Origin: Diatrype stigma
Taxonomy: Eukaryota; Ascomycota; Sordariomycetes; Xylariales; Diatrypaceae
DNA length: 64,000 bases
Direction of reading: 5' to 3'
Assembly (NCBI GenBank): GCA_022225965.2
Contig: JAKJXP020000001.1
Coordinates: 124,001 to 188,000 of the forward strand
Below the pieces are notes generated by a model. It was given only the letters and a program-made list of their open reading frames with translations, searched no databases and had not been told where the DNA came from. Numbering within the stretch: the stretch's first letter is position 1; each line of letters begins with the position of its first letter. Of this stretch, positions 3,094 through 38,136 are shown piece after piece. The translations under genes and the position numbers were made by a program.

Positions 3094-3920
3094 AGATGAG
3101 ATGAATATACCTATGTAGATAATTTAGCCAAGCCACGATGGCGGGCGGCCCTTATGGGTGGTTTTGGGTTCGTGTGGGCATAGCGGGCACACACGATCTA
3201 CCACTGTAGCAAAGGAGGCGTGTACAATAGATACAGGGGACAAGCAGATTGATTCAGGCAATGCATATTTTATGGTTGAGCAATCAACTACCGCCATACA
3301 AATACTCCACGAAGCTCTTACTTGAAACGAACGTCTTCTCTAGACACATAGGGAATACTTCCACTGATAAGGGCGACATATGACCATGTTAGTTGCTGTC
3401 TTCAAGGCAAGCTACTTTCAATGGAACTTGGTTCAATGCCTACACAGTCACTGGTCGACAGGTTCACCGTGGTTCGAAGTGGTGGGTCCTATCCGATGCG
3501 TATATCTGATGCATACATCATGCAGAAGCTCCCGACATCCATATCAAAGGTTCCTTATCTTCCCATTAAGTAGACCTGAGTAGTTGTTCAACTACTGGCT
3601 ATGAATACCCGTATAGCTAGGTAGAGATGTGGTGGCGAGGTACTCGTTTGGATAGCTTGGGGTAGCTGAAATACAACAGACCTTTGCTTTTGCTCTGGTT
3701 GGGATGTGACGAGCCGGGAACATTGGGTAACCACTCAGGCCGCTTTATTCGTCTATTCGTTTGCGCACTGACATCATTGTCCGATACTTGCCAAGGTACC
3801 TGGATTTTGGAAACCAAGGCGCGGTACCTAAGACCTAAGGAATGTATGTAAGGTTACCGGTTGTTGGTGGTCCTACCACATCCTACCTTAAAACGCAGGA
3901 TACGCGGGAAATTCTAACAA
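3094..3920. other. Intergenic, no gene seen
   Basis: 827 bp between the CREG-like gene and the tRNA. Only short unsupported frames; nothing recognisable. Confidence 0.6.
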
Positions 3921-4044
3921 GTTCACGTAGAGAAATGGGTAAGTTGCATCCTTTCCTTTCCTTCAGAAAATACGCTAACCAAAGTTCCAGTAACTCGTTG
4001 ACCTCCTAAGTCAGAGATTGCGGGTTCGAGTCCCGTCGTGAACT
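3921..4044 (+). tRNA. tRNA-Arg(CCT) split in the D loop by a spliceosomal-like intron
   Basis: Halves 3921-3938 (18 nt) and 3991-4044 (54 nt) join to a canonical 72-nt tRNA. The acceptor GTTCACG/CGTGAAC pairs perfectly. The D stem has G10-C25, A11-T24 and G12-C23, with the loop carrying A14, G18G19 and A21. The anticodon stem TTGAC/GTCAG closes loop CTCCTAA, giving anticodon CCT with T33. The variable loop is AGATT, allowing the A15-T48 and G26-A44 contacts, and the T arm is GCGGG TTCGAGT CCCGT. Position 73 is T. A T7 tract at 4052-4058 is a good Pol III terminator. The B box GGTTCGAGTCC is intact and the A box lies wholly in the first half. The interruption is not at the usual 37/38 site of nuclear tRNA introns. 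It would decode AGG codons. It could instead be a disrupted pseudogene, but the perfect arms argue against decay. Confidence 0.85.
3939..3990 (+). other. 52-nt GT-AG intron-like insert inside tRNA-Arg
   Basis: The insert begins GTAAGT directly after the D-loop GG, has a pyrimidine tract (CCTTTCCTTTCCTTC, 3949-3963), a fungal branch site GCTAAC (3974-3979) with the branch A 12 nt before the end, and finishes in CAG. All four signals are at normal spacing for a short filamentous-fungal mRNA intron. GTAA occurs at both boundaries (3939-3942 and 3990-3993), so the exact junction could shift, but only the GT-AG reading uses standard splice sites. It lacks the bulge-helix-bulge setting needed by tRNA endonuclease. 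Confidence 0.8.
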
Positions 4045-4051
4045 ATTCTTA

Positions 4052-4058
4052 TTTTTTT
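4052..4058 (+). terminator. Pol III terminator of tRNA-Arg
   Basis: Run of seven T residues starting 8 nt after the discriminator base, the normal position and strength for RNA polymerase III termination. Confidence 0.8.
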
Positions 4059-36328: not shown

Positions 36329-38136
36329 TCACCGCGGGGGACCGGCAACGAGCCTCCAGGCCCTCAACGGCAGGCTCTGCAGGTGCAGAACCTTGCGACG
36401 GATGTACAGGGTGAAGGTGAGGGCGCCGACGAGGACGCAGATGATATTGACGATGTAGTAGCCGTCGTGGAGGATCTCGCAGGAACCGCCGCCGTTCTCG
36501 CACCGTTCCTTCTCCGCCTGCAGGGCGCATGAGAAGGGCTGTGTCACCAGGGGCCCCTTGAGTGACGTAACGTCCGTCTTGGCCGACGGCGGGTGGCACG
36601 TAGCCGTCGTGAACGCGTCGACCAACTTCAGCACGAAGAATCTCGGGAACGTGCCTCCCAGGTTCGAGACGCTATAAGAAGAAGTTAGCCACAATTACTT
36701 CATTACCATGTATATAAATATCGGCACTGGTTTGAAACTTACGTTGCGAGTAGCGTCATGTAGGTCCCGCCGATCACAGGATCGGCCACCCTTGCATGGA
36801 ACGCGGACACGGCGACGAACATGATGGTATTGGTGAAGGTTGAGAATACATGCGAGAAGATGACGGTGAGAAAGTACCATGGCTGGACACCTTCGGCGGG
36901 AAAAGCGGTGACGACCGTCTGAGCGAAAAGTGCAGCGACAAGGCGACCCATGAAACCCCAGCACCAGAGGCGCATAGGTGTGTATTTCTGCGACCATTTC
37001 CCAGCATAATAGCCTAGAGAAATCTCGAAGGGGAAATCAATCAGTACGGTCAACGCCATGTTGTCCTTCCCGAACCCCTTCTCCAGTAGTTTCAAGTTGG
37101 TGACGCCGTCGTTAGCCTGGAATCCGATCTTGGCGATAAGGTGGACAATAATGATGGTCTGGATATTACGGAGTTTCAAGACATCCCACATGATCTTGTA
37201 AACATCCCAGACGCCTTCTTCGTTTTTGGATTTATCTTCTTTCTTCAGGACGGCAAGGCCGATTGTGATCGCAACATAGGCCCAGCCCCAGAAGGTCAAA
37301 TAGCCTCCAAGACTTATCAGACCTGTGTCGAGTGCTTCCGTCCGGAACCACTTATTGGCAAAATCTTTGGAGTTGAAAGCCAGGAATACGGTATAGGACA
37401 AGAACTGGCCAGCCGTAAGCCCGACGGTTTGGGCGGTTGAGGCATATGAAACGTTTCCAGGTGACAAGAGTGTCAGAGCCCAGCCATCAACCGCGATATC
37501 TTGAGTCGCGCACATAAAGACCAAGAAGAACCACCAGCCAGTAAAACTCCATACGGTGGGACCCCCGGGCTTCCCAGTTGTCGCCATAAGATCTTCGACC
37601 ACGGAGCCTAAGTAAAGCATGCCGACACCAGACAACAGCTGAATAGGCAAGATCCAGCTCTTCCTCCTGCCGAACTTGGGGCTCCATACTGCATCAACTA
37701 TAGGGCTCCAGAACAGTTTGAGAGAATATGGATACGAGGCCAAGCTAAAGACACCAATCTGGCCAAAGGAGAGGTGGTCCTTGAGCAAGAAAGGGACAGA
37801 ACCACTCGCAAGCCCCATAGGTACACCCTGGAGGAAATATAACAAAACCAAGAGCATGAAATTCCGCTGGTCTTGGTGGGGGAGTTCGAAAAAGCCATGG
37901 TTGTTGGCTGTCGGGGTTTTAGGGACATGGTCATCTAGCGAGAAGGAGTCCCGAGACATCAGGTTTGCCGTAACCTGATCTGAATCTGGCTTTGAAGACA
38001 CCTTCCTCCTTAACTCAATGTTTCCAGCCATCTTGCCGTTCGTGGGACCAGCCAAACCGGTAGTCGAGACTGATAAATCGTCTCGAGGTGAGGGCTTCGA
38101 GCGTCTACTTTTGGCACCCATTCGTACTTCGCGCAA
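36329..38136 (-). CDS. Acetyl-CoA transporter family protein (AT-1/SLC33A1)
   Basis: Exons 38136-36743 and 36671-36329 (71-nt intron) encode 578 aa. A polar N-terminus of about 95 residues precedes a multi-helix MFS-like domain. Family motifs include LLYFLQGVPMGLASGSVPFL (first helix), SLKLFWSPIVDAVW, GRRKSWILPIQ, CATQDIAVDGWAL and YMTLLATVSNLGG, the last formed over the splice junction. These are the signatures of the AT-1 family of endoplasmic-reticulum membrane acetyl-CoA importers, which feed acetylation of lumenal proteins and glycans. The C-terminus contains a long lumenal Cys-bearing loop and a last helix (YYIVNIICVLVGALTFTLYI). A nearby upstream Met (Met1 versus Met6) leaves the exact start open. 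Confidence 0.9.

Follow-up and report, generated by a model that had tools for sequence, protein, structure and literature searches.

Can a nuclear tRNA gene carry an intron of the kind that the spliceosome removes? Nuclear tRNA introns are taken to sit between positions 37 and 38 and to be cut by a protein endonuclease. The window, by which we mean the whole stretch of 64,000 nt analysed here (Diatrype stigma, contig JAKJXP020000001.1, positions 124,001 to 188,000), contains a tRNA-Arg(CCT) gene at 3921-4044 that, as read directly from the sequence, is interrupted after G18-G19 by a 52-nt insert (3939-3990). This observation is correct, and the interpretation of the insert as an intron of the spliceosomal type is well supported by sequence comparison. 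The features of the gene are as follows.

3921..3938, forward strand: exon 1 of tRNA-Arg(CCT), tRNA positions 1-19 (acceptor 5' strand, D stem 5' strand, D loop to G18-G19)
3928..3938, forward strand: Pol III A box TAGAGAAATGG, complete within exon 1, pattern TRGNNNAR(N1-4)GG
3939..3990, forward strand: putative spliceosomal-type intron of tRNA-Arg(CCT), 52 nt
3939..3944, forward strand: 5' splice site GTAAGT of the Arg intron
3974..3979, forward strand: branch site GCTAAC of the Arg intron, with the branch A at 3978, 12 nt before the last intron base
3988..3990, forward strand: 3' splice site CAG of the Arg intron
3991..4044, forward strand: exon 2 of tRNA-Arg(CCT), D loop from T20 through discriminator T73
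4005..4007, forward strand: anticodon CCT of tRNA-Arg
4023..4033, forward strand: Pol III B box GGTTCGAGTCC
4052..4058, forward strand: T7 run, Pol III terminator

Deletion of 3939-3990 leaves a clean tRNA-Arg(CCT) of 72 nt that satisfies the cloverleaf and the conserved positions (ARAGORN and reading). The acceptor stem has 7/7 pairs, the D stem three pairs plus A13-A22, the anticodon stem 5/5 (one T-G) and the T stem 5/5 (one G-T); the anticodon loop is CTCCTAA, A15 and T48 are partners, and G18 and G19 are present. Position 73, the discriminator, is T. Both promoter boxes (A and B) and the terminator are in place, and a search for decay of the exons found none visible. Between GTAAGT and GCTAAC the insert is pyrimidine-rich and lacks a T4 run, and shifting the splice point by one base leaves the product unchanged. 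The preliminary description of this DNA had claimed a 7-bp acceptor, a T arm, the CTCCTAA loop, 15-48 partners and a T7 terminator, along with GTAAGT, a pyrimidine tract, GCTAAC and CAG at the spacing of an mRNA intron, and in all of these it is borne out.

The division of the gene in the D loop, also claimed there, is confirmed by ARAGORN, which calls the spliced form tRNA-Arg(cct) and retains it to a threshold of 118% (six other tRNA genes tried from the same genome were retained to 110-120%). On the unspliced gene the program reports solely a tRNA-Lys(ctt) at 3920-4045 with a 29-nt anticodon intron, retained to 104%; we rejected this call given the two thresholds (104 vs 118%). With introns disallowed, ARAGORN finds zero tRNAs in the window. 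Infernal, applied to the unspliced window, gives a weak tRNA of 30.5 bits (gathering score 29) at 3984-4044, in which bases of the insert serve as a false 5' acceptor strand. This D-armless candidate has a mismatched acceptor and was likewise rejected. Minimum-energy folding of the spliced Arg RNA yields a structure other than the cloverleaf; for the precursor, the predicted structure preserves the acceptor, anticodon and T arms around the intron.

The splice signals were compared with chance and with an mRNA intron of the same window. Among 1,000,000 simulated 52-nt inserts with local base statistics, 18 had the relaxed pattern GTRNGT...RCTRAY...YAG in any of seven registers, and none had the strict GTAAGT...RCTRAC...CAG. 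Deletion of each of 50 intron-like segments on both window strands (segments within 120 bases of the window ends being left out) revealed a tRNA once, at the Arg insert, which was also the only one among 156 distinct segments to do so when the window and 91 loci were taken together. A looser test (183 deletions at 74 B-box sites) returned the Arg gene and one tRNA-Phe (L007); the latter is already intact, adjoins another tRNA and was set aside. GTAAGT and RCTAAC occur together in 3/20 strong intron-like segments listed for the window. The Arg insert is one of these three; another, used as the yardstick, is the following pre-mRNA intron.

36672..36742, reverse strand: acetyl-CoA transporter gene intron, sharing GTAAGT and GCTAAC with the Arg insert

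Once it is deleted, the open frame extends to 609 aa and Pfam Acatn scores 553.3 bits instead of 449.6. Since the 5' site and branch site of the Arg insert are those of this validated intron, the tRNA insert bears the genome's own mRNA signals.

We searched the whole genome (48,980,124 bases, 224 contigs) for further copies of tRNA-Arg(CCT). The preliminary description had called for such a count, and had named a second intact copy, together with decay of this one, as speaking against its reading. Five whole-genome searches, valid for the patterns used, identified no second tRNA-Arg(CCT), and the exons of the known copy are without visible decay. CTCCTAA followed by a B box occurs in two places genome-wide, the other one without a tRNA call. 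BLAST of the Arg locus finds one place, itself. TCCTA followed by a B box gives 20 places, the others being tRNAs with anticodon-loop introns, apparent tRNA-derived repeats or unrelated sequence. The 28 places with TCCTAA and a relaxed T loop are tRNA-like by eye at the Arg gene only, and none of the four places with CTCCTA and a long anticodon intron has CTCCTA in the anticodon loop (ARAGORN and eye). At one of these four (L069), a tRNA-like stretch with a long insert, CTCCTA lies far from the expected anticodon loop. ARAGORN also names Arg(cct) with an intron in L082; we did not count it, as CCT lacks a preceding T33 and the paralogue in L061 lacks CCT. The tRNA-Arg(CCT) pattern had 0 matches each in prokaryotic and viral contig collections, where little was expected. 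The tRNA census is based on about the first hundred of 409 matches, with 63 of 1714 candidates scored. At the sensitivity used, tRNA-Arg(CCT) is single copy. AGG is a common codon, accounting for 51/251 Arg codons in six ORFs of the window (one of them without a Pfam match). Judged by its POP1 protein, the host is an ascomycete close to Monosporascus: the best named matches share 70% identity and one further match 73%, and most of the at least 120 matches belong to Xylariales.

The second place with CTCCTAA and a B box matches a group II intron (RF00029, 66.6 bits; L010, near G000:C4:55565).

Is the Arg gene alone in this? A whole-genome pattern of a CTAAC branch site, AG and a B box occurs in 21 places, which include, beside the Arg gene, a tRNA-Lys(CTT) gene on contig 59 (L103). 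Its insert of 53 nt (GTAGGA...GACTAAC...CAG) follows A15, and its joined exons are 73/73 identical to four uninterrupted tRNA-Lys(CTT) genes (L001-L004). These intact genes represent the empty site, and therefore fix the GT and AG ends without use of splice rules. BLAST of the whole genome with tRNA-Lys gave eight matches in seven places, namely the four intact genes and those on contigs 59, 53 and 131. The contig 53 gene (L113), found in this way by a tRNA query without splice signals, has a 56-nt insert (GTAGGA...ACTAAC...TAG) at the same D-loop site as that of contig 59, along with an additional 22-nt insert in the anticodon loop; minus both, it is 73/73 identical to the intact tRNA-Lys(CTT). 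ARAGORN names this gene Arg(cct) or Ile(tat), not Lys, if the D-loop intron alone is removed; we call it Lys because of the 73/73 identity. The related tRNA-Lys on contig 131 (L114) has, by reading, an anticodon-loop intron without a D-loop intron. D-loop introns occur in two of the six tRNA-Lys(CTT) genes found.

Aligned with each other, the two Lys introns agree in 36 columns, differ in 17 and have gaps in 3; kept between them are GTAGGAA, CTCGCTT, GCAAATGACTAACC and YAG. The alignment shows a 5' site, a branch site and a YAG that appear selectively conserved while the introns diverged. In the exons of both interrupted genes (146 bases) there is no change. Gene conversion among the copies could add to this identity, but if an intact Lys gene were the donor, loss of the intron would be expected. 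All six tRNA-Lys(CTT) genes (L001-L004, L103, L113) share a similar 3' trailer hairpin (GATGCATCTCGT...CGAGATACTTCGAA) before the T run, and the stem of the contig 59 trailer is, from our reading of the folds, maintained by paired changes. Thus, this gene is not simply decaying. The minimum-energy fold of its unspliced RNA is not the cloverleaf. The two interrupted genes are dispensable, because four intact Lys(CTT) genes exist. The score of the alignment of the Arg with the Lys intron was reached by 91/5000 shuffles, which is no more than suggestive of a common origin.

Also among the 21 places is a tRNA-Leu(TAA) gene on contig 101 (L110), in which 57 nt (GTGAGC...ACTAAC...TAG) lie between G18 and G19 and which has, according to ARAGORN, a 19-nt anticodon-loop intron as well. 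After removal, ARAGORN retains the tRNA to a threshold of 108%; for the unspliced gene it reports a tRNA-Gln whose intron would span 67 nt. A T4 run within the Leu intron could act as a weak Pol III stop. The pattern that found the genes on contigs 59 and 101 required CTAAC and AG, and therefore only the GT end is independent evidence there, together with the empty site for contig 59.

Deletion of 238 GT...CTRAY...YAG segments at 111 B-box-like sites, a set that includes both Lys genes and the Leu gene already found by the CTAAC pattern or the tRNA-Lys BLAST, revealed D-arm-interrupted tRNAs for the Arg, two Lys and Leu genes only, some of the four being restored by more than one deletion. Control motif sets at the same sites gave 0/218 and 0/158. 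The searches for further cases covered the branch sites CTAAC and CTGAC with the B box GGTTCRANYCC. The final whole-genome pattern matched 20 places, comprising 11 of a multicopy GCCAGG element, the genes on contigs 53 and 101, an Asp gene and six others that, judged by eye, were not taken as cases. The tRNA-Asp (C78:117397-117486; L119) has by reading an ordinary anticodon-loop intron, 0/6 GT deletions in it gave a tRNA call, and its CTAAC is taken as chance. L106 (C65), a tRNA-Leu 3' half in AT-rich DNA, was not counted, its 5' half not being found in the locus with the Leu words tried. The CTGAC pattern gave 18 matches, none of them a D-loop case by eye; four (L115-L118) were also deletion-tested with none positive, 13 were judged from the printed match alone, and the one in L077 is a tRNA with an anticodon-loop intron. 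With three further tRNA genes holding a like insert, two of them with an empty-site control, the earlier reading of the Arg insert as a spliceosomal-type intron gains support.

The four genes can be compared directly. All (4/4) have GT...AG ends, those of Lys being fixed by the empty site, and an RCTAAC branch site, which lies 12, 11, 13 and 12 nt from the 3' end. A range of 6-36 nt before the 3' end is given for the RCTRAY branch site (PMC5832005), and 4/4 genes satisfy it. GTAAGT of Arg fits the fungal 5' consensus GTRNGT; GTGAGC of Leu and GTAGGA of both Lys genes deviate. Random inserts of 53 and 57 nt with fixed ends have GT...CTAAC...AG, the CTAAC lying 10-14 nt from the end, in about 2/100,000. 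The inserts follow G19 (Arg), A15 (Lys) and G18 (Leu), and none lies between 37 and 38. The A box consensus TRGNNNAR(N1-4)GG, written loosely so that one to four bases may precede GG, can be read in each of the four genes before splicing. It is complete in exon 1 of Arg, is completed by the first G of the intron in Leu, and by GTAGG of the intron in Lys. The odd GTAGGA of Lys, the same in both copies, may balance the needs of U1 pairing against those of the Pol III promoter.

We predict that Pol III would transcribe the Arg gene from the A and B boxes, both intact, as far as the T7 run, that the spliceosome would excise the 52-nt intron at GTAAGT, GCTAAC and CAG, and that the joined 72-nt RNA would be trimmed by RNase P and RNase Z, be charged and decode AGG; we infer the order of these steps, like the steps themselves, from sequence features. 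The RNAs of contig 53 Lys and contig 101 Leu would additionally be cut by tRNA endonuclease. As these two genes carry an anticodon-loop intron too, two splicing machines would act on one tRNA. Counting against splicing of a Pol III transcript, an old experiment reportedly saw no splicing of a reporter transcribed by this polymerase. We consider it highly probable that the D-loop insert of the one tRNA-Arg(CCT) gene found is a U2-type spliceosomal intron, that Pol III transcribes this gene and the spliceosome removes the intron, and that at least three more genes are of this kind. It is also quite probable that the spliceosome is an obligatory enzyme of tRNA maturation in this fungus, with the sole AGG-decoding tRNA-Arg(CCT) dependent on it, a family of D-loop introns in Arg, Lys and Leu genes, some pre-tRNAs needing both spliceosome and tRNA endonuclease, and a Lys 5' site shaped to double as the end of the A box.

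Other explanations have to be weighed against removal by the spliceosome. The insertion may have killed the Arg gene, with AGG read through wobble by tRNA-Arg(TCT) or by a copy missing from the assembly, which in its 224 contigs may be incomplete. This would agree with the T at the discriminator position, and with the account in the available text of PMC4090602 that short insertions in the D or T arm of eukaryotic tRNAs mostly affect one of many synonymous genes and are supposed to mark pseudogenes. Here, however, neither whole-genome patterns nor BLAST found a synonymous tRNA-Arg(CCT), the arms, A box, B box and terminator are intact with no decay seen, the boundaries of the insert coincide with perfect splice signals, and three other tRNA genes have a like insert, two of them with exons identical to intact copies. 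We regard a dead gene as unlikely. It is also unlikely, and slightly more so, that the intron is spliced from a Pol II read-through transcript of the locus instead of a Pol III transcript. Spliceosomes normally act on Pol II transcripts, and the polymerase used cannot be told from sequence, but the Arg gene has an A box, a B box and a T7 terminator with no T4 run between, the 5' splice site of Lys, identical in both copies, also serves as the A-box end, and in the upstream direction the first ORF of 200 aa or more (CREG) ends at a distance of about 830 nt.

Removal by the tRNA splicing endonuclease or through a bulge-helix-bulge (BHB), as in red algae and nucleomorphs, has its precedent in the D-arm introns of Cyanidioschyzon merolae and the Guillardia theta nucleomorph, many of the Guillardia ones being described as without a defined BHB (PMC4090602, PMC3978253), and three of the four central BHB pairs can be formed in some Arg and Leu registers. 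Yet a complete BHB is absent from all three genes tested (Arg in ten registers, contig 59 Lys, Leu in three registers), and such a mechanism leaves unexplained both the GT, CTAAC and YAG at fixed spacing in four genes and the apparently selective conservation of these signals between the two Lys introns. We therefore consider it very improbable. The least credible explanation is chance coincidence or an assembly error. A single assembly was seen, but the simulations, deletion tests and controls all speak against an accident, as do the four loci, which are separate and of which two have homologous introns that have diverged.

If the inserts are spliceosomal introns, as we favor, their closest parallels lie in other small RNA genes. 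The U6 snRNA gene of fission yeast, transcribed by Pol III, has an mRNA-type intron (PMC10484740), and thus resembles the tRNA cases in placing a spliceosomal-type intron in a small Pol III RNA gene. It differs in that U6 is itself a component of the spliceosome, and its insertion is thought, in the available text of that source, to have come from reverse splicing near catalytic nucleotides (PMC10484740). The only U6 gene found in the present genome (L071; G000:C103:111417-111512) matches the U6 model along 96 nt and has no intron. Introns of fungal U3 snoRNA, present in the vast majority of the Pezizomycotina analysed in PMC5832005, are like the tRNA introns in their GT-AG ends, RCTRAC branch site, preference for CAG and location in a small structured RNA (PMC5832005), but the host is a snoRNA. 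According to the accessible part of that 2017 paper, frequent interruption by introns is known, among small structured RNAs, for U3 and U6 alone (PMC5832005).

Among tRNA introns, those in the D and T arms of C. merolae and the cryptophyte nucleomorph share a D-arm site and a nuclear-type tRNA host with the present ones (PMC4090602, PMC3978253). They differ in that the Guillardia introns are 3-24 nt long and those of C. merolae are linked to a BHB; removal of D-arm introns in both is attributed to splicing endonucleases, and the accessible text of the two sources contains no mention of GT-AG ends or a branch site (PMC4090602, PMC3978253). The canonical introns at 37/38 reside in the same class of host but differ in position, in splice signals and, if our prediction holds, in enzyme; contig 53 Lys and contig 101 Leu have an anticodon-loop intron besides the D-loop one. 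None of the open-licence PMC papers listed by our searches was seen to describe a spliceosomal intron within a nuclear tRNA gene, which is not proof of absence. What we describe is a known kind of intron in a class of gene for which we found no such report.

If true, spliceosomal introns in tRNA genes would constitute a further class of tRNA intron, and tRNA precursors would be shown to reach the spliceosome. The decoding of AGG would then be tied to splicing capacity. Gene finders that allow introns in the anticodon loop only would miss or misname such genes, as ARAGORN did here, and therefore tRNAs that seem "missing" from fungal genomes may be hidden. The noncanonical-intron step of tRNAscan-SE 2.0 is described, in the available text of its source, for archaeal candidates (PMC8450103). 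In the Lys pair, with its empty sites, the gain of introns by a Pol III gene is recorded directly, and the question becomes testable.

We also identified other tRNA-like elements in the genome. A multicopy tRNA-like gene of about 200-230 nt, GCCAGGTTGGTGYAGTGGT...CCAGGTTCGATTCCTGGACCAGGCA (L038, L043, L057, L078, L083, L091 and more places), has a second internal B box, a conserved middle and often a T run after it; it is either a tRNA with a very long intron or a separate Pol III RNA. Three tRNA-Gly-like loci (L045, L056, L097) have a conserved stretch inside anticodon-region inserts of roughly 75-114 nt. L061 (about 2453-2566) and L082 form a tRNA-like pair with AGCCGCG/GGCCGCG acceptors and a long insert in the anticodon region, in which T33 and the anticodon are not placeable. 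L069 contains two nearby tRNA-like stretches with long inserts (about 868-1003 and around 1572). Two apparent families of tRNA-derived, SINE-like repeats with a B box are represented by L013, L015 and L031, and by L017, L020, L025 and L028.
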